Virus record (IMG/VR): IMGVR_UViG_3300020000_000010
Coordinates: 1 to 64,000 of that record
Reading direction: 5' to 3' (one strand)
Origin: a virus
DNA length: 64,000 bases
Part shown: one piece after another, positions 14,087 through 64,000 of the stretch
How positions within the stretch are numbered: the stretch's first letter is position 1
Layout: the number at the start of each line of letters is the position of its first letter
Program-made: the position numbers and the translations under genes
The notes under the pieces: model-generated
Databases searched by the model: none
The model's input: the letters and a program-made list of their open reading frames with translations, nothing else
What the model was told of the DNA's origin: nothing

Positions 14087-14397
14087 TGTCAGAAATTTAC
14101 GGAGGAAAATCAGGAACTAAAGAATATAAAAGAGAAGAATATTCATATTCTAAAGACGGAGTATCATATAGAGTTTCTTGTAAGGAAATAGAGAATGGAC
14201 ATATTGTTTGCATCTATAAATCTTGGGAAGAAGGAGAAGGTTCTAAAAAAGAATATAAATCAGAAAATACTGAAACTTATTATAAAGAAAATCCTTTTGG
14301 AGAAGACTTTGAAAAGGATGAAGAAAAAGATGAAATTCATACTATGAAAGGCTTAAAAGAATTTATGCAGAAACTAAATCCTTTAATTGGAAAATAA
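14086..14397 (+). CDS. Acidic hypothetical protein (103 aa)
   Basis: A short beta-like N-terminus (EYSYSKDGVSYRVSCKEIE) leads to a very charged, Glu-rich second half ending KEFMQKLNPLIGK. No family is recognised. TAATG overlaps on both sides place it in the same translation chain as the ring gene and the SET gene. Confidence 0.7.
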   Translation: MSEIYGGKSGTKEYKREEYSYSKDGVSYRVSCKEIENGHIVCIYKSWEEGEGSKKEYKSENTETYYKENPFGEDFEKDEEKDEIHTMKGLKEFMQKLNPLIGK

Positions 14398-14777
14398 TGC
14401 TTATTATAGATACTATATTAAAAGAAACCAAACTTAAAGGTATTGGATTATTTGCTAATCAGAATATAAAGAAATGGCAGATAATCTGGAAAGATAATAA
14501 TCATGCTTATACTTTTTCTAAGTTTGATTATAGTAAAATGAATAGTATTCAAAAGGCTTTTGTAGATAAATATAGTATTCCTAAAGATTCTAAATATATT
14601 TTAGATCTTGATAATACAAGGTTTATGAATCATAGTGAAAACCCAAATATCTTATTTTTAGAAGATCATGGAATAGCTACAAAAAATATAAAAATTGGAG
14701 AAGAATTAACTTGTAATTATGATGAATTATCTTCAGAAAATAAGAATGAAGGATTAGGATTTGAAAATTTAGAATAA
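14397..14777 (+). CDS. SET-domain protein, putative lysine methyltransferase (126 aa)
   Basis: The short SET fold is recognisable. The N-terminal G-x-G part reads TKLKGIGLFANQNIKKW. The cofactor motif is FMNHSENPN (Asn78-His79-Ser80), followed by ATKNIKIGEELTCNY with the catalytic-type Tyr108. SET enzymes transfer methyl groups from S-adenosylmethionine to lysines. No pre-SET or post-SET cysteines are visible. Set between ring-protein genes, it could modify a virion protein or a host factor, which is inference. The length is near the minimum for the domain. Confidence 0.8.
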   Translation: MLIIDTILKETKLKGIGLFANQNIKKWQIIWKDNNHAYTFSKFDYSKMNSIQKAFVDKYSIPKDSKYILDLDNTRFMNHSENPNILFLEDHGIATKNIKIGEELTCNYDELSSENKNEGLGFENLE

Positions 14778-14778
14778 T

Positions 14779-15516
14779 ATGATGAATGGTAAAATTTACG
14801 GACTAAGTTCGAGTGAAAATCCAGAAGATATTAAATATATTGGTTATACAAAACTTTCTTTAAAAGAAAGATTACGAGGGCATAGGGATGATGCTATAAG
14901 AAAAAAATATAAAAAAGCAACTTGGATAAAAAGTTTACAAAATAAAGGATTTAACGTTATTATAAGTTTAATAGAAGATAATATTCCAACACTAGAGGAA
15001 ATGCAAGAAAAAGAAATACAATATATTAAAATATTCAAATCTCTTGGTGCTAAATTAAAAAACACAACCGATGGAGGAGCTAAAGTATGTTCTTTTGAAA
15101 ATAGTGTAAGATCTGGAAAATTAAATACAAAAGCAGTGATACAATATGATTTATTTGGTAATAAAATAAAAGAATATAATAGCGTAGGCGAAGCAGCAAA
15201 AGATAATAATATTGTTGATACAGCAATAACTAAATCTGTAAAAAGAGGACAAGTAGTCTTAAAGAAATATCTATTTAGATATAAAGATGAAATTTTTAAA
15301 GATATTAAAAATTTTAGAACTAAAACTAGGAAAGTATTACCTGTAAAATTAATAAATATAGAAACACGAGAAGTTAAAAATTATGAAAATACTAAATTTT
15401 TAGTAAAGGGGTTATTTGGCGAAACTTGGAATATGAATGATTATAATTCAGCTCTTATTTGTTTGAAAAATAATAAAATATATAAAGGAAAATTTAAAAT
15501 AGAATATTATGCTTAA
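14779..15516 (+). CDS. Free-standing GIY-YIG homing endonuclease (245 aa)
   Basis: KIYGLSS near residue 4 and IKYIGYT near 18-24 are the GIY and YIG strands. A conserved basic helix (SLKERLRGHRDDA) follows. After the nuclease come DNA-binding modules of NUMOD1 type (AVIQYDLFGNKIKEYNSVGE). Its last eight bases overlap the start of the R1-like gene. No intron signs were seen at its edges, so it looks like an intergenic homing gene that inserted between two virion genes and kept translation coupled. Confidence 0.88.
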   Translation: MMNGKIYGLSSSENPEDIKYIGYTKLSLKERLRGHRDDAIRKKYKKATWIKSLQNKGFNVIISLIEDNIPTLEEMQEKEIQYIKIFKSLGAKLKNTTDGGAKVCSFENSVRSGKLNTKAVIQYDLFGNKIKEYNSVGEAAKDNNIVDTAITKSVKRGQVVLKKYLFRYKDEIFKDIKNFRTKTRKVLPVKLINIETREVKNYENTKFLVKGLFGETWNMNDYNSALICLKNNKIYKGKFKIEYYA

Positions 15517-39478: not shown

Positions 39479-40966
39479 CTAAATAATTTTCTTCAATCTT
39501 TCTCTAATTTCACTTAAAGAAGTTTGGTTATAAAATTTACCATCTTCAAAGATTGTTTGTAACAATCCCCCAGATTCTTCTTCTTGAGTACATTCTTGTT
39601 TTACATAGATCTGTTTTTTATCTTCAGATATATTAACCGCTAGTAATCCTTTTAACGATTTCTTAGTACCATCATCTGTTATAGGATCTTTATAAATATT
39701 AATTCCTTTACCATTATTTTCAAACCAAGCCCCTTTAGCCGCAAAACCAAAAGTATCTCTAGTATTATATTGATAAGTAAAAGAACCTACTCCTAATACA
39801 ATATTAGTAGCAGCAAAACCTTTAGTTGCTAATCTTTCATAGATTTGTACTTGTCTTTCTGTAGTAATAGAATCACCATAGATAGCTCCAATATGTGGAT
39901 CAAGAACTTTATATCCTTGCTCATTTACAGTTCCACCAAAAATATCCCAAAGAAGTTCTATTACTCCTTTAACTTCAGAGGTTCTTGGATTATCTAAATT
40001 ATGTGGAGAATCTGTACCACAAATAATATCTACAGGATCTCCAGAATCAGGTCTGATTACCAATTTACCATCTCTGGCTAAGATAAGTTTCTTAACTTTA
40101 GGATCAGCAATATACTCAGTAAGCAATTTCCATAGATCAAAAGTATCTGCTACAATTGAAAGAATTCCTTTTGGAAATTCTATTAACCAATCAATAATCA
40201 TTTGCTTTTCTCCAACTGTAAAAATTTTAGTTGTAGAAACAGAATGTTCAGAAGCATTTACTGAGTAAATACAAACTTTATCTTTTGGTTCATTATAAAA
40301 ATATCTTGCTCCTGGAATAACAATTAAAGTATCAGATCCACTATGGCTTGTAGCATGACCTAAACCACTAGATAACATATCCCAAGGAGATAGTCCTCTA
40401 GCAGAAAAATCATGGCACATATAATCAACTAACCAAAGATTAGCAGGATCTGTTTTCATTACCCACTCTATAGCATTTCTTTTATATTTTAAAGCTATAG
40501 TGGCAGAAGTACTTGGTTTCCATGCTAAACTACTAATTATTGTTTCAAGATATAAAGTTAACCATGCAAATCCATCAACGGTATTAATGAAAGTCATATG
40601 AGGAATATTAGGATCTGTTTCAATACCTTCAGGAAGAGCCTTAATTCTTATTGGCAAATATCCTAATGAATGTAAAGTATCAAAGTGTTTAGCATCATAA
40701 TCCATCATAAGATACATACTCATATCTTTTCCAAATTGTTGAGCTTCTTCTAAAGGTAATTTAAAGAAATTTTCTTCAAATTCATCCTTTAACCATATCA
40801 TAGTAAGTTGCTGACCACAAGAAACTATTTTAGTTACTCCTTTTGGAGCATATTTAGTACTTCTTGGAATCCAACTACCATATAGTTTAGTAGTTCCAGG
40901 AGCTAACATTTTTTTATGGCCCACTTTGTAACCATCAGTATAAAAAAGAGTGTTTGGTTTAAACAT
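39479..40966 (-). CDS. nadV: Nicotinamide phosphoribosyltransferase-like enzyme (495 aa)
   Basis: Hallmarks of the NAMPT/NadV family are all present: YTDGYKVGH at the start, ASEHS (238-242, catalytic-type His241), VADTFD (272-277), RPDSGDP (305-311) and GDSI (364-367). The family joins nicotinamide to PRPP to make NMN. Length is normal. It is the last gene of the leftward block, downstream of a HAD-type phosphatase and a PRPP-synthetase-like gene. In the reported phage NARP1 pathway, homologues annotated this way instead join nicotinamide to ADP-ribose pyrophosphate and remake NAD+. Which substrate is used here cannot be read from the sequence. Confidence 0.9.
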   Translation of the reverse strand: MFKPNTLFYTDGYKVGHKKMLAPGTTKLYGSWIPRSTKYAPKGVTKIVSCGQQLTMIWLKDEFEENFFKLPLEEAQQFGKDMSMYLMMDYDAKHFDTLHSLGYLPIRIKALPEGIETDPNIPHMTFINTVDGFAWLTLYLETIISSLAWKPSTSATIALKYKRNAIEWVMKTDPANLWLVDYMCHDFSARGLSPWDMLSSGLGHATSHSGSDTLIVIPGARYFYNEPKDKVCIYSVNASEHSVSTTKIFTVGEKQMIIDWLIEFPKGILSIVADTFDLWKLLTEYIADPKVKKLILARDGKLVIRPDSGDPVDIICGTDSPHNLDNPRTSEVKGVIELLWDIFGGTVNEQGYKVLDPHIGAIYGDSITTERQVQIYERLATKGFAATNIVLGVGSFTYQYNTRDTFGFAAKGAWFENNGKGINIYKDPITDDGTKKSLKGLLAVNISEDKKQIYVKQECTQEEESGGLLQTIFEDGKFYNQTSLSEIRERLKKII

Positions 40967-41412: not shown

Positions 41413-42303
41413 TTAAAATATGTTTAATTGTTTTAATATTTTTGATCCTATAGAAATACCATCATATTCATTATATTTTGGAATATCATTATAACTATTT
41501 GTACAATAAATACCATCAAAATATTTGGATAATTCTTCATAACCCTTACTAAAAATACCATGAGTTACTATAAGATAGATTTTAGGACAACTGTTTCCAA
41601 TATAATGATCTTTTATCTCCTTTGCTATATTAATAAAGGTAGCACCACCATCACAAATATCATCTATTATAATAAGATCTTTATTTCCTAAATTGCTTAG
41701 AGGAACTACACATTTAGTTAATTTGCCATCTTTATCTCTTTCCTTAGAACAAATAATAATATCTCCTTCAAATTCAAAAGATTCAGCAACTTTATATATT
41801 TTCTTAGAAGCTCCTGCGTCAGGAGATATTAAAACCATTCTAGAATTACCTTCATTGGAATCATAATCATAAATTTCACTTAAAGCAAACTTAACTACTT
41901 CTTCATTAGATATTCTTAGAAAATTAGATTTAATACAAGCTTCTAATACATCTGAATGAGGGTCTAAACAAGTTATTGAATAAAAATTAAGACTATTTAA
42001 AATAGGACAAATAACATCTTTTAAATAGTTATTAGACCCTTCTTCAAACTTTCTATCACTCCTAGAACCTAATATATACGGAGAATATAAATTAATTCCC
42101 CTAACATTTAATCCTTTTAGTGATTTTACAGCACAAATTAATATTTCTAGATCAATAAAATTATTAATTCTTGTTTTAATTTCTATATATTCGTTTAAAA
42201 GAGTTTTATCTAAAATTGTTAATTGATTTTGACCATCTGGAAATTTAGAAATTTTATATTTAATATCTGATTTTTCTGGATAAACCAGATTTAATATTTT
42301 CAT
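41413..42303 (-). CDS. Ribose-phosphate pyrophosphokinase-like enzyme (296 aa)
   Basis: Family motifs are visible: GSRSDRKFEEGS (79-90, ATP-site loop), LDPHSD (113-118, metal-binding), PDAGASKKI (161-169) and the PRPP loop IIDDICDGGAT (212-222). The classical enzyme transfers pyrophosphate from ATP to ribose-5-phosphate. The phage Adps enzyme of the NARP1 pathway belongs to the same fold and uses ADP-ribose. The stop directly abuts the HAD gene start. Pairing with a NAMPT-like gene suggests NAD+ supply. Confidence 0.88.
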   Translation of the reverse strand: MKILNLVYPEKSDIKYKISKFPDGQNQLTILDKTLLNEYIEIKTRINNFIDLEILICAVKSLKGLNVRGINLYSPYILGSRSDRKFEEGSNNYLKDVICPILNSLNFYSITCLDPHSDVLEACIKSNFLRISNEEVVKFALSEIYDYDSNEGNSRMVLISPDAGASKKIYKVAESFEFEGDIIICSKERDKDGKLTKCVVPLSNLGNKDLIIIDDICDGGATFINIAKEIKDHYIGNSCPKIYLIVTHGIFSKGYEELSKYFDGIYCTNSYNDIPKYNEYDGISIGSKILKQLNIF

Positions 42304-52665: not shown

Positions 52666-52760
52666 AAGAGTAGGCAGATAGTATAGGAGTCGAACCTATA
52701 TCTTCTAACCCGTGAGATCTAATGCTTTATCCTAATTAAGCTAACTACCCACCTACTCTT
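52666..52760 (-). tRNA. tRNA or tRNA-like RNA with an irregular anticodon arm
   Basis: The core is 52675-52750 on the minus strand: acceptor helix GGGTAGT/ACTATCT, D arm GCTT...AAGC with an AATTAGGATA loop, T arm ATAGG-TTCGACT-CCTAT. The anticodon arm has one extra base and poor pairing, so the anticodon is uncertain (CAC, valine, is the best reading with a U before it). Nine more bases on each side (AAGAGTAGG/CCTACTCTT) extend the acceptor helix. The CCA end is not encoded. Confidence 0.72.
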
Positions 52761-56364: not shown

Positions 56365-57651
56365 TTAGGTTACTAAATCTTCTTTTACCTTAATAAAGCT
56401 AATTCCAGCTTCTGTTTGATGTTTATATTCAATAATAGCATCCCTATCAAAGAAACCAAAAGGAACAAGTTCCATTCTATTTTTTTTACATCTAGCAGAT
56501 TTCTTTTCTATTTTCTTTAGAAAGCTTTTAGTAGGATTAGGTATTTCTGTTACCATTCTCTTATATTCAGAAAATTTTCTAGCATAAGTTTCCTTAGCAA
56601 AAATATCAAAGTTAGTCCTAATATCATATTCAGATAATAAGATTAAATCAACATTTTCTTTAATTTTCTTAACATAGATCTCAAACCTAGTTTTAAAACT
56701 CATAACCTCTACAATATCTCCCTTTTTAAACTTATTAAAGGCTATATTAGTCACTAAAAGTATTTGGTTATAGTTATACTCAGTAATTGCTATTTTTAAT
56801 GGTAGAGCTACAGAATTCTCTTTTTTATTAAAGAATCTTCCTAAAGCATTTTTCATCCCATCTAATAATCCTTTACCTTCTTCTTCATCTTCAGAATCAT
56901 CTTCTATTTCATTATTTGGTAAAATAAGATTAGAATTATTAGTTTCTTCTTTTTTAGCTTTATGCTCTTCCTCTTTAGGAACTATTGGATTAAAAGTAGA
57001 TAATACAACCTTATCTTCAACTCCTCCTACATTCCTTATAGAAGAATTACAATATCCTTTATTAGAAAAGAAATATCCAGAATCTTCAATAAATCCTTGA
57101 GAACAAACTAAACCTTTATCTGGAAATAGAATAACAATCTTATTCCATCCTAAAAATCCTATATTATCAAATACCATATCAAACTCTTCAGTATCCTCTT
57201 TAAAGAACTCTAAAAGATGTTTATTATTCATAAATTCATGAACAAAATGATAAGTATCTGAATATACTGAATTTTTATAAGCATATTCTCCAAATATTCC
57301 ATTATGAGCTAAAGTAGGTTTACTTACCCAGCCTTCTAATGTTAATATCTCATCTTGCTTAGTAGAAATAACAAAAGGATGGCAATTTAAATCATCTGTT
57401 TTACCACTAGTTCCTATTCTCATATGAACCATTAATTCATCATCTAATTGTAAATCAGCCTCTTCTAAAGAATTTAATAGATTTTTAATACTAAAATATC
57501 CTTTAGATATAAAAACTTCTTTATCATTTCCTGCTTTTTTATAGGAATATCCCATTCCTTGTGTATTACTAATAGCACCAGATCTAATAGAATCTATAAA
57601 AAACTTACTATATTTTTCTGTTCCCTTAGGAGCAACACATATTAAACACAT
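56365..57651 (-). CDS. Class II glutamine amidotransferase (428 aa)
   Basis: The N-terminal Cys nucleophile is at position 2 (MCLICV). Class II motifs follow: HMRIGTSG and PTLAHNGIFGE. The enzyme would free ammonia from glutamine for a partner ligase. The C-terminal 200 residues (Lys/Glu linker, then ALPLKIAITEYNYNQILLV) are not part of the core fold. It overlaps the amidoligase gene by ten bases, which strongly links the two. Confidence 0.82.
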   Translation of the reverse strand: MCLICVAPKGTEKYSKFFIDSIRSGAISNTQGMGYSYKKAGNDKEVFISKGYFSIKNLLNSLEEADLQLDDELMVHMRIGTSGKTDDLNCHPFVISTKQDEILTLEGWVSKPTLAHNGIFGEYAYKNSVYSDTYHFVHEFMNNKHLLEFFKEDTEEFDMVFDNIGFLGWNKIVILFPDKGLVCSQGFIEDSGYFFSNKGYCNSSIRNVGGVEDKVVLSTFNPIVPKEEEHKAKKEETNNSNLILPNNEIEDDSEDEEEGKGLLDGMKNALGRFFNKKENSVALPLKIAITEYNYNQILLVTNIAFNKFKKGDIVEVMSFKTRFEIYVKKIKENVDLILLSEYDIRTNFDIFAKETYARKFSEYKRMVTEIPNPTKSFLKKIEKKSARCKKNRMELVPFGFFDRDAIIEYKHQTEAGISFIKVKEDLVT

Positions 57652-59057
57652 AATATTTCTTTTACTGTTAATTGTTTTATACTTGATAATTTTTGTTTAC
57701 CATATTCTTTAGCTTCTTCTTTCTGAGCCTCTAAAGAAGTAAATAGTTCCTTTCTTTTTTCAAAGTATTCAATTAGTTTATGTGTTCTTTCATTATCTCC
57801 AAAACAACATTCTAAAATTAAAGGAATAGTAATCTTTTGTATACCTTTTTCAGATTCAAAATATTCATTTTCTATCTCTTTTTGATAGTTTTCAACAAAT
57901 GATACAAAGGCTATACAAAATAATAACCAATTTTTAACTTTAACAAAGTTTGTAGTACCAGAATGGCATCTAAACTCTAAAGTATATGATTCATTTTCTC
58001 TAGTGTTAAATAAACATGGTATAAAATTTAACCAAGCATATCTAATATTAGAATGATCATAACCTACTTTAGCTCCTTTAGGATGATTAGTCTTTTTATT
58101 TAACTTATCATCAGGATTATATTTACATGCTTTTTTAAATATTTCATTGTAAATATCTGATAACCAGATATTATACTCTATTTTATTAGTTGTTTTACCT
58201 AAATACTTCTTTTCATATAAATTAGGTAACATCTGGCAATAGGTTGATCTAGACCTACTTGGAGGTAAATATTGAAATAAATCCTTTTGAATAGCCAATC
58301 CTAGTTTATAGGCAAAGACTATAAAAGTCTTATTAAAATCTATATTTCCTAGATGAATATGAATACTCGTTTTCTTGTCTACAGTACATCTTTTTGATAG
58401 TTCCATACATATCTTCTGAAGATGTAATAAACCATTATTACCTGAAAGAATTCCAGTAATATATTCTCCTGAAATAGGATCTCCTCCGCCTTCAGGTCTC
58501 AAAGATCCATCATATTCACAAGATATATTTAAATCATTCTCTAGGTATTCTGGAATATATCCAGAAGCTGTTTCTAGCTCTACTCCAAAAGTATACTTTT
58601 TATTTCCTGTTAATAGAAAATTATTATTTTTCTCAGGAAGGTTTGGATATGTATTATTAAAAGTTCTATATTTAGCAGATCCAGCATAATAGTTTGAAAT
58701 ATATTTTAAATACTCTTCCTCAAGAGGTATAGGATAGAAAAATCCCCATTTTAAATCCTCTCTAATATTTTCATCTTTAAAAACATCTCTAGAAATATAA
58801 GCAAAACTATTATTTCCAATATATAATAAAGGATACTTTTTAGCCTTACTACTATAAAACTCATCAAGAATCTTAATAGCGTTTTTTTCTAAAGTATAAG
58901 AATGTACTATAGGATTTAATTTATATTTTTTTGTTAATACTCCTGTTTCAACATCTAGAACTTCTGTATCATCTAAACCTTTATAAAGGGCTTTTTCATT
59001 CATTTCTTTCTTATTAAATATTTTTAAAAAATAATTGAAAAACTTAAATATCAACAT
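57642..59057 (-). CDS. Amidoligase of the COOH-NH2 ligase superfamily (about 471 aa)
   Basis: Core motifs of the glutamine-synthetase-like amidoligase family are clear: FGVELE (169-174), EYDGSLRPEG (193-202), HIHLG (245-249) and a final LEFRCHSGTTNFVK (numbered from the longest frame at 59093). I set the start at 59057 to reduce overlap with the previous gene; 59003 is also possible. The enzyme would use ATP to form an amide bond, such as joining an amino acid or ammonia to a carboxylate. Neighbours are two amidotransferases and a second ligase type. Confidence 0.82.
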   Translation of the reverse strand: MLIFKFFNYFLKIFNKKEMNEKALYKGLDDTEVLDVETGVLTKKYKLNPIVHSYTLEKNAIKILDEFYSSKAKKYPLLYIGNNSFAYISRDVFKDENIREDLKWGFFYPIPLEEEYLKYISNYYAGSAKYRTFNNTYPNLPEKNNNFLLTGNKKYTFGVELETASGYIPEYLENDLNISCEYDGSLRPEGGGDPISGEYITGILSGNNGLLHLQKICMELSKRCTVDKKTSIHIHLGNIDFNKTFIVFAYKLGLAIQKDLFQYLPPSRSRSTYCQMLPNLYEKKYLGKTTNKIEYNIWLSDIYNEIFKKACKYNPDDKLNKKTNHPKGAKVGYDHSNIRYAWLNFIPCLFNTRENESYTLEFRCHSGTTNFVKVKNWLLFCIAFVSFVENYQKEIENEYFESEKGIQKITIPLILECCFGDNERTHKLIEYFEKRKELFTSLEAQKEEAKEYGKQKLSSIKQLTVKEILCV

Positions 59058-60654
59058 GTTCTTCTTGTTGAGAAGCTTCTGTAATAATTTCATTAAATTC
59101 TAGTTTAATAGTATCTCTTAAAGCCTCTATTCCTTCTTTAACCATTAGAATTTCAGCAGAACTCATAATATAGTTTTCTGTTCCTATCTTTGAGGATTCT
59201 ATAACCTTAAGAATATTATCTAAACTAATAATAGCAGCTTCTTCAACTTCTTTTACTTTTTCCACATTTATTTTTTTTGTTTTATTATTCTTTTTTTTTT
59301 CTATCTTTTCTAGATAATCTTTTATTTCATCTTTAGAAGCAGGTCTTAGATAAGTATCATTAACAACAACACTTCTTCCTGTTAATTCATTTCTAATATC
59401 TCTTCTATTATCATGATTATGAACCATGATTTTACAAATATCTCCTTTATTTACAGCAGGTTTATCCTTATCTTCACCATCAACATATACTAGACTACTT
59501 GTTACAAACACATATATAATATCATTAAGATTATACATTTCATTATAATAAAACCAGAAGGGATTTACTTTAACTCTATCTAATTTCTCATCAATAATAT
59601 AGACTTCTTCTAAATTTTTATCATTATTAAGTTTAGCTACTCCAGTACAGAAATACCAGTTATCTCTTATTAAAGAAATATCTTGTCCTCCAGCTCTAGT
59701 AGTTGTTGCTTGACACTTTAACCATCTATTAACTACTTCTTTTCCTCTATAAGTATATTGTAGATTAAAAGTTTTTATAGGAGTAGAAATAATAGGTTTC
59801 TGTTCTACAAAAGAGTTATTATTATGATTTTCTCCTTGTAGTTCTTCTAACCATTCATCATAATGATTATTTCTATTTCTCCAATTATTATTAGTATTAG
59901 TTTTTGGTAAAATTCCAGGAAAAGGCTTTTTAGCTATTTTAAACTGGTTTTTTACTTTACCATTCTTAATAATATATAAATAGTCTTCTTTAAACTCTAT
60001 AATATTCTTACAGTTTATTGATTTTAAAGATTTCTCTATAGAAGAAATATACATTCCTTCGTCTCCTATACCTCTATATAAAGGTCTTTCTTTGTTTCTA
60101 TATACATAAAGAGTATCGGGAGTATTTGTATCTGTAAAAATTAATGCTGCTGCTCCTTCAAATTTACTTAAACAGTATAAATTCTGTTCTTTATTTAAAG
60201 ATGCTGCTAGTATCATACTATCTACATCATAATCTCTACTAGATAAACCTAGGTTGCCACAAAGTATCCAGGGATTATCTAAAGTTCCATTATGTGCTAA
60301 AACAATATTACCATATTGAAAAGGATGAGCATTATTAAGGCTATTAACACCATAAGTTGCTTGTCTAACATGTCCTATTAATACACTATCTTGTTGTATT
60401 TCATTATAGAAGTCTGAAGTAATATATTCGCTAGATTTCTTTAATGATTTCTTTATTCCTGTTTTAGGAGTATAAATGCCTGTAGCATCTTTACCTCTTT
60501 CTTCATTCCAGAATAATAATTGAGCTATTTTACTTTTATCAAAGAGATAATCTATAGCTGAAAACCCAACTAGACCACAGCCTAATTGGGATTGAAGTTT
60601 TTTAGATCCAAAGATAAATTGAATAAAATAACTTATTGTTATTAATAATAACAT
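59044..60654 (-). CDS. Class II glutamine amidotransferase with N-terminal extension (536 aa)
   Basis: CGLVGFSAID starts the domain, but its Cys is at residue 26 after a hydrophobic segment and a short linker (FGSKKLQSQLG). No start codon lies next to the Cys, so the domain needs processing to expose it, as in PurF-type propeptides, or the N-terminus is a membrane anchor. Further motifs are GHVRQATYG and LAHNGTLDN. The C-terminal 280 residues are charged and of unknown fold. It is coupled to the amidoligase gene by overlap. Confidence 0.8.
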   Translation of the reverse strand: MLLLITISYFIQFIFGSKKLQSQLGCGLVGFSAIDYLFDKSKIAQLLFWNEERGKDATGIYTPKTGIKKSLKKSSEYITSDFYNEIQQDSVLIGHVRQATYGVNSLNNAHPFQYGNIVLAHNGTLDNPWILCGNLGLSSRDYDVDSMILAASLNKEQNLYCLSKFEGAAALIFTDTNTPDTLYVYRNKERPLYRGIGDEGMYISSIEKSLKSINCKNIIEFKEDYLYIIKNGKVKNQFKIAKKPFPGILPKTNTNNNWRNRNNHYDEWLEELQGENHNNNSFVEQKPIISTPIKTFNLQYTYRGKEVVNRWLKCQATTTRAGGQDISLIRDNWYFCTGVAKLNNDKNLEEVYIIDEKLDRVKVNPFWFYYNEMYNLNDIIYVFVTSSLVYVDGEDKDKPAVNKGDICKIMVHNHDNRRDIRNELTGRSVVVNDTYLRPASKDEIKDYLEKIEKKKNNKTKKINVEKVKEVEEAAIISLDNILKVIESSKIGTENYIMSSAEILMVKEGIEALRDTIKLEFNEIITEASQQEEHVDI

Positions 60655-60674
60655 ATTTTTATTTGTTTTATAGA

Positions 60675-61594
60675 TTATAAATCTTCAAGATCTCTCATTC
60701 TTGCTCTATGATGTTCTAAGATATTTTGCATTGCTTCTTGTTGCCTTCTTTCTATTTCATTTGCTTCTCTAAATTCTACATCATTATTGATTACAAGAGG
60801 TTCTACTGGTGGTACAACTCCATCAAAAAATCTAACAGGATTATAAATTCTAGCCTCAGGTTCTAGGTAAATATCTTGCATTAAATCTTTAATATAACTT
60901 TCATTAAATTTCGCAAAAGCACTATTCTTATCCTTTTTCTTATTTAAATCAGGAACAGGAATCTTATATTTCTTAATTAGTTTTTCTGCTAATTCTTTAT
61001 CTTGAGTGTTAATACAAGAAACTATATTTTCTTTTTCTTTTTCTATTAATTTATCAAAATTCTTATTGTTATTAATAAAATCAATAGCATTATGGACATT
61101 GTTGAATACCCATTCTATTAGGTTATCATTAAAGATCCAGAAGTTGCTTAATACCCTAAATTCTAAGCCAAACTTTGGGAATCTTATTTCTCCAGCTTTA
61201 CCATACATTTTCCTTCTTTCTTTATCTTCATCATAAAGAATAGAAGGTACTCCTAAAAATAAATCAAAAGCTTTTGCAATTCTTAAACTATCATCTAAAT
61301 TAGGATTATCATATCCACAGTGCAAATGTCCGCCCGAACATCTGTAGTTACCATTAGGTTTTGGAGATCTGTTTTCACAACATTCCCAAGCATTAATAGA
61401 TCCTTCACAACCAAAAATTTTTGCTTGTTTATGCTCTAAATATTTAGGATCAAATTCAGCACTAGGAGAAGGATCAATAACCAAAGTATTTGGTAGTTTA
61501 TTCTTTCTTACATAATCTAAAACATAATTTATAGAGGCTATTAACTCTTCACTACTCCTACTTGGAGGTATATTAACAACTAGTTTCTTTCTAG
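60675..61594 (-). CDS. COOH-NH2 ligase type 2, exon 2
   Basis: The downstream exon runs in frame from about 61594 (RKKLVVNIPPSRSSEELIAS) to the stop. It continues with SINAWECCENRSPKPNGN and the histidine-rich GGHLHCGYDNP, typical of the phiEco32-like COOH-NH2 ligase type 2 family. An apparent TTG start at 61484 is not needed. With exon 1 it would give about 368 residues. The enzyme forms amide bonds using ATP. Confidence 0.78.
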
Positions 61595-61731
61595 CCAGAC
61601 TATCCCTTCATCCCTAAGGATGGATCTATTATAGTCGTTGCACGTCTCTTTATTTAATATATCATCAAATAAACAATCACATTTTTTCCTTGTTTATTTT
61701 CAATATTAAAATAGATTTCGCTCAGGATTCC

Positions 61732-62568
61732 TTACGCTGGTTCCCTGAATTTAAGATCTTTTTTTAATTTATAATTACTTATAAACTGAGCTTTAAGATA
61801 TTTTCTTTCTAGATAAATATCTGCGTTTTTATATAAAAATTCGATTAACATTTTACAATTTACAAAATTTATAATATGTATTCGATATAAATTTTTATAT
61901 AAATATAGTCTGTTTTTAATTAAATTATCATCAAAAAATTTTTTAATTTTATCAATAAATAATTTACTTGCAGAAACTATACTTATACAACAATTATACT
62001 CTTTTTTGTTTTTGTTTTTAAAAAAAGAAATACAACCATCTCCGTCTATTACTCCTCTTAAAAAATCCCAAGTTATTGGTATTTTTATATCAAGAGTTTT
62101 AGATTTATTTCTGGTTATTCCTAAATTTATAAGAAAATTAGTAACACTTATAGAAGAAAAACTAAAATTAGACATAAAGTGTCCTTTATATTTAGAATGT
62201 TCTGTTTTATAAATAGGCAAATTACTATTTATAAAAATTTTATATTTTTCAATATGTTCTAAATCTTTGGAATTTAATCCTAAAGTTATTCTATTTCTAT
62301 AAATTCCGCCATCTGTTGCTAATAATCCTAACCAATATTGAGTTTCTCTATCCTCTAAATTAATGAATGGATTATGTTTTACATTTCTTATTTTATCCAT
62401 TCCTCTTCTTCTATTAGAATCGGCTCTTTCTTTTATATTATTCCAAACATTATATTTAATACAAATATCTTTAAGTGTCTCATATGCAACCTTATATTTA
62501 TATTTAATATCCTGAATGTTTACTTTATCATTATAATCTTTAATTAAATCTTCCTCTCTTCCAACCAT
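61732..62568 (-). CDS. LAGLIDADG homing endonuclease (278 aa)
   Basis: Two copies of the family motif are present: WLGLLATDGG (79-88) and LRGVIDGDGC (170-179), each followed by a strand pattern. A short N-terminal helix-turn-helix (YKVAYETLKDICIKYNV) may help DNA contact. The gene lies in the 5' part of the intron and its last codons run into the intron core. It has its own promoter. Confidence 0.88.
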   Translation of the reverse strand: MVGREEDLIKDYNDKVNIQDIKYKYKVAYETLKDICIKYNVWNNIKERADSNRRRGMDKIRNVKHNPFINLEDRETQYWLGLLATDGGIYRNRITLGLNSKDLEHIEKYKIFINSNLPIYKTEHSKYKGHFMSNFSFSSISVTNFLINLGITRNKSKTLDIKIPITWDFLRGVIDGDGCISFFKNKNKKEYNCCISIVSASKLFIDKIKKFFDDNLIKNRLYLYKNLYRIHIINFVNCKMLIEFLYKNADIYLERKYLKAQFISNYKLKKDLKFREPA

Positions 62569-62587
62569 TTTTTATTAATTTTGACCA

Positions 62588-62619
62588 CAAAGATAACTAT
62601 AATTTTTCACAAAAACAAA
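62588..62619 (-). promoter_or_regulatory. Consensus promoter inside the intron
   Basis: On the minus strand TTTG (62619-62616), exactly 20 bases and TATCTTTG (62595-62588) match the Bacteroidetes consensus. The endonuclease ATG is 20 bases downstream, so the gene can be expressed without the host gene's transcript. Confidence 0.75.
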
Positions 62620-62645
62620 TTTTTATATAGTTATTTAATTAGTTT

Positions 62646-62832
62646 ACTCTCCTGCTACCCCATCTTCCTGTAAAGCATATCCTGTTTTTCCTTCAGGACT
62701 TATATCAATTGGTTCTTTTTTAGTACCTCCTATTAATCCAATTGCAGGGATAAATTCCCCGGTATTCTTATTCTTTAAAAAAAACTCAGGATCTCCTCCT
62801 ATAGTTATATTTTCAATTTTATTTCTACTCAT
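62646..62832 (-). CDS. COOH-NH2 ligase type 2, exon 1
   Basis: Contains the family's N-terminal signature ITIGGDPEFFLKNKNTGEF (Asp14, Glu16) and PAIGLIGGTKKEP, then ALQEDGVAGE just before the intron. Alone it stops at 62644, but the frame joins the downstream exon. It lies five bases after the class I amidotransferase stop. Confidence 0.78.
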
Positions 62833-62837
62833 ATTAA

Positions 62838-63470
62838 TTATTCTTTATTTAATAATTCTAACACTAATCCTTGCATATATTTTACTGTATCACAGTTTAG
62901 ATCCATCCATTCAGGATGAGATTGTATTCCTAAACATTTAGTTTTAGGAAAGAATATAATCTCTACTTCTTTCTTATCTTTCATATCTATTTCTTCATCC
63001 TTACCATTTAAATAAGTATGAGAGAAGTTTGGTGCCCAACCAAGTATTTGAAAGTCTTCTTCTGGAAGATTATAAGGATAGGCCATCTGATGATGAGAAC
63101 TTGTTACAGGTAATATTTTACCATCAAAAGTAAGAATATTATGTGAGGAGTTATGAGACATATGCTGGATTAACTTGCCAGAATTCATAACTACTAAAAA
63201 TTGATTTCCTCTACAAGCCCCTAGGCATGGGATTTTCAACTCTAAAGCCTTATTAAAACATATTTGTTCAAAATCATCTCTCCTTTTATTAAAAGAAGTA
63301 TATTTTCCTTTCTGTTCTCCATAAAGTTCTGGACATATATCTTCTCCTCCTGTAAATAGTACAAGATCTGCTTCTTCTAGCTTACTAGCAAAGATATAAC
63401 CTATTGGATGTAACCAATTAGCATAATCTAAAGAATTTCCTACTACATATACTTTTTTTTTATTGCTCAT
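62838..63470 (-). CDS. Class I glutamine amidotransferase/gamma-glutamyl hydrolase-like (210 aa)
   Basis: The triad is visible: Cys86 in LGACRGNQFL, His185 and Glu187 in IQSHPEW. The FTGGEDICPELYG segment fits the gamma-glutamyl-GABA hydrolase (PuuD-like) branch. It would hydrolyse a gamma-glutamyl bond or supply ammonia. Its place at the head of the ligase cluster suggests trimming or building of a glutamyl-type modification. Confidence 0.85.
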   Translation of the reverse strand: MSNKKKVYVVGNSLDYANWLHPIGYIFASKLEEADLVLFTGGEDICPELYGEQKGKYTSFNKRRDDFEQICFNKALELKIPCLGACRGNQFLVVMNSGKLIQHMSHNSSHNILTFDGKILPVTSSHHQMAYPYNLPEEDFQILGWAPNFSHTYLNGKDEEIDMKDKKEVEIIFFPKTKCLGIQSHPEWMDLNCDTVKYMQGLVLELLNKE

Positions 63471-64000
63471 TTATTCCTTCCATTATTTTTTTATATTTAC
63501 CTTGTTTATATAGTTCTCTAAGTTCATTAAAGTTTTGTTCTTCTTTATTATTAAAAAAACTATGAATATTTGTATGATTTGCTTTTAATAGTAAATCAAA
63601 TAAATCTTCAGGTTTATCATAGAATTTAGCTTCTCCACTAACCAAAGCATGATTACTATTATAAATACTAAAAGAAGTACTATAATGAGCTAATATCAAA
63701 AGATTTAATTTATTTATATCTTCTATTTCTTCTATTAACCTAAACCATTCTTCAATTATAGGTTTTGAAGTATTTTCATATAAATATCTAAGTAAAGTTA
63801 AAGTTATCTTTAAAATTATAGGATTTTTATCATTAATAACTTTAATTCCAAAATATTTTTTATTATTATGAATAATATCTCCTAATATTTCAGATTCAAA
63901 TCCTAATTCTTTTAATAAATTTATATACTTTTCTGTATCTTCTAAAGAATATTCACAATATTTATCTTGGATATGATTTTTATACCTATCTATTAGTAAA
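63460..64000 (-). CDS. Hypothetical protein, partial at the right edge
   Basis: The frame is open to the window end (about 179 residues). A TTG at 63699 is internal. Sequence is helical (EEWFRLIEEIEDINKLNLLI) with a central LVSGEAKFYDKPEDLFDLLL and a Lys-rich end. No family recognised. It overlaps the class I amidotransferase start by 11 bases. Confidence 0.75.
   Translation of the reverse strand, partial: LLIDRYKNHIQDKYCEYSLEDTEKYINLLKELGFESEILGDIIHNNKKYFGIKVINDKNPIILKITLTLLRYLYENTSKPIIEEWFRLIEEIEDINKLNLLILAHYSTSFSIYNSNHALVSGEAKFYDKPEDLFDLLLKANHTNIHSFFNNKEEQNFNELRELYKQGKYKKIMEGINEQ

Follow-up and report, generated by a model that had tools for sequence, protein, structure and literature searches.

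The cassette in a crAss-like phage

A "peptidoglycan modification" cassette or module has been described in the phages phiEco32, LUZ24, PA11, Salmonella 7-11, RIO-1 and PSA-HP1, where modification of the wall is a prediction from gene content (PMC5498523 and PMC11945000, both citing Hardies 2013). This podovirus cassette clusters a PF14395 COOH-NH2 ligase, a PF12224 amidoligase, a class II glutamine amidotransferase (GATase) and an ATP-grasp ligase among early genes, often together with GGCT and a C26 enzyme. We found the same four genes in one run in a 97,600-base (97.6-kb) IMG/VR record, of which the window analyzed here is a 64-kb stretch, whereas a profile search for GGCT gave no match in the window or the remaining record. 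The record is a crAss-like phage, placed in the Crassvirales through capsid and terminase relatedness (MCP 34% identical to that of cr108_1, TerL 36% identical to that of phi14:2).

Five of the cassette genes lie on the minus strand at 56365-63470, as a first-pass annotation of this DNA had placed them, and their identities were borne out, the families by Pfam and PHROGs and the second class II enzyme (GAT2b) by predicted structure. The HMM searches which that annotation had suggested put its two ligases in PF14395 and PF12224 (by Pfam, and by PHROG for exon 1 of the former). It described most of the genes as overlapping, which is true of two junctions out of four (56365-57651 with 57642-59093, and 57642-59093 with 59044-60654), whereas 20 bases separate the PF14395 ligase from the class II GATase and 5 bases separate it from the class I gene. 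All five genes are present, but the cassette is larger than they are, with the run going on past the window edge into a 221-aa protein and a RimK-like ATP-grasp ligase; also overlooked was that the set already carries a name, "peptidoglycan modification cassette" (PMC5498523; PMC11945000). When the profile of each component was run against the whole window, it recovered the cassette genes alone, plus the expected cross-match of the two class II enzymes, and PADLOC returned no match.

Catalytic residues are intact in the cassette enzymes. The class I glutamine amidotransferase or gamma-glutamyl hydrolase (62838-63470, minus strand, 210 aa) is a PuuD-like Peptidase_C26 member (PF07722, E 1.5e-17; phrog_7218; PDB PuuD, E 4e-6) with a C86-H185-E187 triad that is 99% conserved across 100 homologues; its top NCBIfam match, far under the cut-off, is gamma-glutamyl-CDP-amidate hydrolase. 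The Amidoligase_2 gene (57642-59093, minus strand, 483 aa; PF12224, E 1.2e-9) encodes a glutamine-synthetase-like ligase in which E172, E174, D195, E210, H245, H247, E373 and R375 are invariant or nearly so. GAT2b (56365-57651, minus strand, 428 aa, N-terminus Met-Cys) has no Pfam match, and its AlphaFold model (mean pLDDT 73, residues 1-200 mostly above 90) matches the GlmS glutaminase domain by Foldseek (E 4.6e-6), with C2, R78, N117, G118 and D132 invariant in 21 homologues; the predicted glutaminase domain is N-terminal, and the C-terminal part has no assigned role. Beyond the class I gene lie the 221-aa protein (minus strand, 63460-64000 in the window and to 64125 in the record), which has no family match and has relatives in two of the phage loci that we fetched (L034 and L103), and the ATP-grasp ligase (record positions 64109-64969), which matches phrog_2599 (E 6e-23), annotated "ribosomal protein S6 glutaminyl transferase", and the RimK family (E 3.5e-6). 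Searches of PDB sequences with the amidoligase and the ATP-grasp protein gave nothing convincing.

Elsewhere in the phage, a nicotinamide/nicotinate phosphoribosyltransferase gene (39479-40966; NF006629 above cut-off) lies close to a PRPP synthetase-like gene (41413-42303), both on the minus strand, a pair that resembles the NAD-restoring pathway of phages against NAD-depleting defences. Leptolyngbya phage Lbo-JY46 has the same cassette, and a similar phosphoribosyltransferase/PRPP synthetase pair stands just upstream of it in the Leptolyngbya phage. Among the late genes are a SET-domain protein (PF00856, E 8e-11; 14397-14777, plus strand), possibly a protein methyltransferase, and a GIY-YIG/NUMOD1 homing endonuclease gene (14779-15516, plus strand), while the early region carries a single tRNA-Val (CAC) gene (52673-52750, minus strand).

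Conservation of the four-enzyme core

Two IMG/VR scans yielded 114 loci, of which 50 distinct ones were complete, that is, with at least 6 kb on either side of the ligase. The PF14395 ligase, amidoligase, class II GATase and ATP-grasp ligase occur together in every one of these (50/50), accompanied by a C26-type class I GATase in 42, GGCT in 34 and a second class II enzyme in 12; GGCT is thus missing from 16 of the 50 and is not strictly defining. This co-occurrence rules out a chance grouping of unrelated enzymes, and the outcome that the first-pass annotation named as refuting, a lack of the cluster in all relatives, clearly did not occur. Given the constant company of the four core enzymes and their nearly invariant catalytic residues, they are best read, from sequence comparison, as one pathway under selection. 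In three phage contigs (L087, L088 and L090) the only recognized core enzymes were a class II GATase and an adjacent amidoligase, possibly a minimal version of the system.

A supply of nitrogen or glutamate to the infected cell, as auxiliary metabolism, has been proposed for phage ZRK32, which has the same enzymes (PMC10945688). A gene core fixed at four members, with two dedicated ligases whose active sites are invariant, speaks for a defined product and against nitrogen scavenging, and we regard such a general role as highly improbable here.

Clustering of the genes that neighbour the cassettes for a recurrent target protein returned mostly replication genes and clade-specific proteins without an assigned family; some neighbour slots looked GNAT-like by eye. 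For cellular homologues of the cassette, one genome scan produced two contigs, both phage-like in content. The searched collection has 316 phage records with relatives of the PF14395 ligase, and some of these carriers, including Pseudomonas and E. coli phages, are easy to grow.

The ligase itself is split in this phage by a 1069-bp group I intron (61577-62645, minus strand), with exon 1 (62646-62832, residues 1-62 and base 1 of codon 63; phrog_3815) and exon 2 (60675-61576; PF14395, E 5e-8, 32.9 bits against a cut-off of 25) on the same strand, joined at a junction placed by homologue alignment. Both exons match phrog_3815, and splicing restores the motif EDGxxxEFNIPP, the rebuilt sequence being EDGVAGEFNIPP, in line with homologues. 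The spliced protein has 362 aa, with invariant or nearly invariant D14, E16, D57, E62, H147, R184 and R204 (past residue 63 the refined splice gives numbers lower by one), and the insertion point is immediately 3' of the invariant Glu62 codon. Four group I core elements were recognized by eye (P 61751-61739, Q 61729-61715, R 61643-61630, S 61608-61595), and the intron encodes a 278-aa LAGLIDADG homing endonuclease (61732-62568, minus strand; PF14528, E 5e-9; phrog_4645, E 5e-41). An Rfam search of the intron gave no match, probably because the ORF splits the fold, just as a PF14395 profile search of the phage's own record returned nothing despite the gene's presence, probably because the gene is split. 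Another crAss-like contig (L121) has two endonuclease ORFs within its PF14395 ligase, at a different place; this contig, one of the two from the genome scan for cellular homologues, is labelled "uncultured archaeon", carries a crAss-like cassette and is probably mis-binned phage DNA.

The membrane extension of the class II glutaminase

The first class II glutamine amidotransferase (59044-60654, minus strand, 536 aa; GATase_6, E 3.2e-15) is modelled by AlphaFold with a GlmS-type glutaminase domain at about residues 26-240, beginning at the catalytic Cys26 (Foldseek match 1xff, TMt 0.75). Both class II enzymes have the Ntn catalytic residues (Cys, Arg, Asn-Gly, Asp), and in this one C26, R97, N122, G123 and D145 are nearly invariant. 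In GAT2b the encoded Cys is residue 2, whereas here it is preceded by MLLLITISYFIQFIFGSKKLQSQLG, a membrane helix followed by a basic linker and QLG, of which AlphaFold predicts residues 2-14 to be helical. Class II amidotransferases require a free N-terminal Cys, so that extended forms would have to be cleaved to work, and with no start codon close to Cys26, translation cannot bypass the extension.

Evaluating 88 distinct homologues of this enzyme, we found 36 with an extension and 52 with Met-Cys. All 36 extended forms fall inside a 70-member clade that holds the crAss-like phages, the other 34 members of which are Met-Cys. The extensions share a layout of a hydrophobic helix, a mostly basic linker and a typical end, [IVT]L[SGN], with Leu at -2 in 30 of 35 and commonly Ser, Gly or Asn at -1. 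Positive charge is greater after the helix than before it in 30 of 39 rows (these include four spurious upstream ORFs, which were set aside in the extension counts), a pattern that predicts a cytoplasmic location for the catalytic domain. Counting well-supported branches of the tree, at least 13 changes between the two forms took place (parsimony gives 21); L033 and L039, which are near-identical, differ in this way, as do L076 and L081. In the remaining cassette proteins membrane helices are almost never present. A signal peptide or lipoprotein is unlikely, given that Asn, Tyr or Phe often stands at -1 and that basic residues lie mostly after the helix. A separate small membrane protein compensating in the Met-Cys relatives was not found either, with candidates at 2 of 22 such loci against 5 of 25 loci with the extension.

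Comparing close pairs, pN/pS is about 0.4 in the extension and 0.22 in the first 60 core codons, values that come from few sites and are only suggestive of constraint on the extension. Within pairs among L050, L066, L049 and L058 the extension DNA is almost identical while the following core codons differ, and the extension may have been exchanged by recombination or be under another constraint.

Putting these features together, we tentatively read the glutaminase of many crAss-like phages as a membrane-tethered proenzyme with a cytoplasmic domain, whose helix would be removed to expose the Cys, probably through self-cleavage, and whose anchor has been repeatedly gained and lost; we would put this at somewhat under even odds. 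If true, it would put the whole cassette on lipid-linked wall precursors.

Candidate products and comparison with known cassettes

We favour the reading, at a probability of roughly 45%, that the cassette encodes enzymes that work at the inner membrane to amidate and glutamylate peptidoglycan precursors, with the glutaminase made as a membrane-tethered proenzyme. Earlier authors predicted the wall from gene content, a prediction with which the wall-peptide option of the first-pass annotation agrees (PMC5498523; PMC11945000), and a tethered glutaminase fits a lipid-linked substrate. The class II glutaminase, in this phage starting out membrane-tethered and activated by cleavage ahead of the Cys, would free ammonia from glutamine; with this ammonia, or with an amino acid, the amidoligase encoded by the overlapping gene would amidate a carboxyl group. 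Isopeptide attachment of glutamate or another amino acid would fall to the PF14395 and ATP-grasp ligases, and trimming of gamma-glutamyl groups to the C26 enzyme. We infer that the substrate is most likely a peptidoglycan precursor, lipid-linked and on the membrane's inner face, and that altering the wall would shut out competing phages or adjust it for lysis by the phage itself. The same phage carries an M15-family peptidase (PF08291; 11858-12322, plus strand), a likely endolysin that probably targets the wall stem peptide, on which the cassette is proposed to act.

About half of the relatives have a membrane-anchored glutaminase, which points to the envelope, and the half without the anchor indicates that a membrane location is not essential. 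With the cassette lying among replication genes, a cytoplasmic target would fit as well, such as a host or phage protein (RNA polymerase, ribosomal or virion protein) modified with glutamate or amide groups. Protein glutamylation is known for RimK-like ligases, and the ATP-grasp enzyme resembles both that family and the PHROG for ribosomal protein S6 glutaminyl transferase, within a cassette in an early-gene position that has a primase/helicase on one side and nucleases on the other. We nevertheless consider a protein target unlikely, because the cassettes have no conserved small tag or partner protein in common, two glutamine-synthetase-like ligases and gamma-glutamyl trimming enzymes exceed what it would need, and the membrane anchor is left unexplained. 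Slightly more doubtful is a soluble gamma-glutamyl peptide or amide metabolite serving as an anti-rival, redox or counter-defence compound: gamma-glutamyl enzymes (GGCT and C26) do accompany the cassette and the class I enzyme has its distant likeness to gamma-glutamyl-CDP-amidate hydrolase, yet this phage is without GGCT and we noticed no export or resistance gene beside the cassette. Amidation or glutamylation of virion DNA bases, which the first-pass annotation had raised and which the setting among DNA replication genes would suit, we set aside as exceedingly improbable, since a general look at related neighbourhoods brought up no modified-base pathway gene, none was noticed beside the cassette here, no cassette family is a known nucleobase enzyme, and a membrane-tethered glutaminase would be odd in that role and points to the envelope. 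Returning to the wall-precursor reading, the constant four-enzyme core and the repeated membrane anchoring make the inner face of the host envelope the place to look for a product.

Our literature search, which covered open-access journal papers, returned neither a report of the extension nor a discussion of the cassette in crAss-like phages; in two of these, phi14:2 and cr108_1, its individual genes are already annotated. The membrane extension looks new, and extension and GAT2b together look new relative to the known cassette. The podovirus cassette shares the four core genes, whereas the present one lacks GGCT and adds GAT2b, the group I intron in the ligase and the membrane extension on the first class II GATase; its gene order is also unlike the ligase-amidoligase-GATase-ATP-grasp type found in 11 other loci. 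With the glutaminase domain of GlmS and PurF the class II enzyme has in common the fold (1xff, TMt 0.75) and the catalytic Cys, Arg, Asn, Gly and Asp, but no sugar isomerase or phosphoribosyltransferase domain was recognized in it, and a membrane extension precedes the Cys in place of Met or a short propeptide.

Closer comparisons come from within the Crassvirales. Cellulophaga phage phi14:2 (Steigviridae) has, at g037-g041, the ATP-grasp ligase, PF14395 ligase, class II GATase and amidoligase in the common order, and its class II GATase likewise bears a membrane extension; it differs in having GGCT upstream and a uracil-DNA glycosylase (UDG) downstream, and its cluster is without the C26 enzyme, GAT2b and the intron. 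The cassette of cr108_1 is collinear with that of this phage, running from the ATP-grasp ligase through the C26 enzyme, ligase and class II GATase to the amidoligase, but its class II GATase is Met-Cys, two unknown proteins occupy the slot of the 221-aa protein, and a UDG replaces GAT2b.
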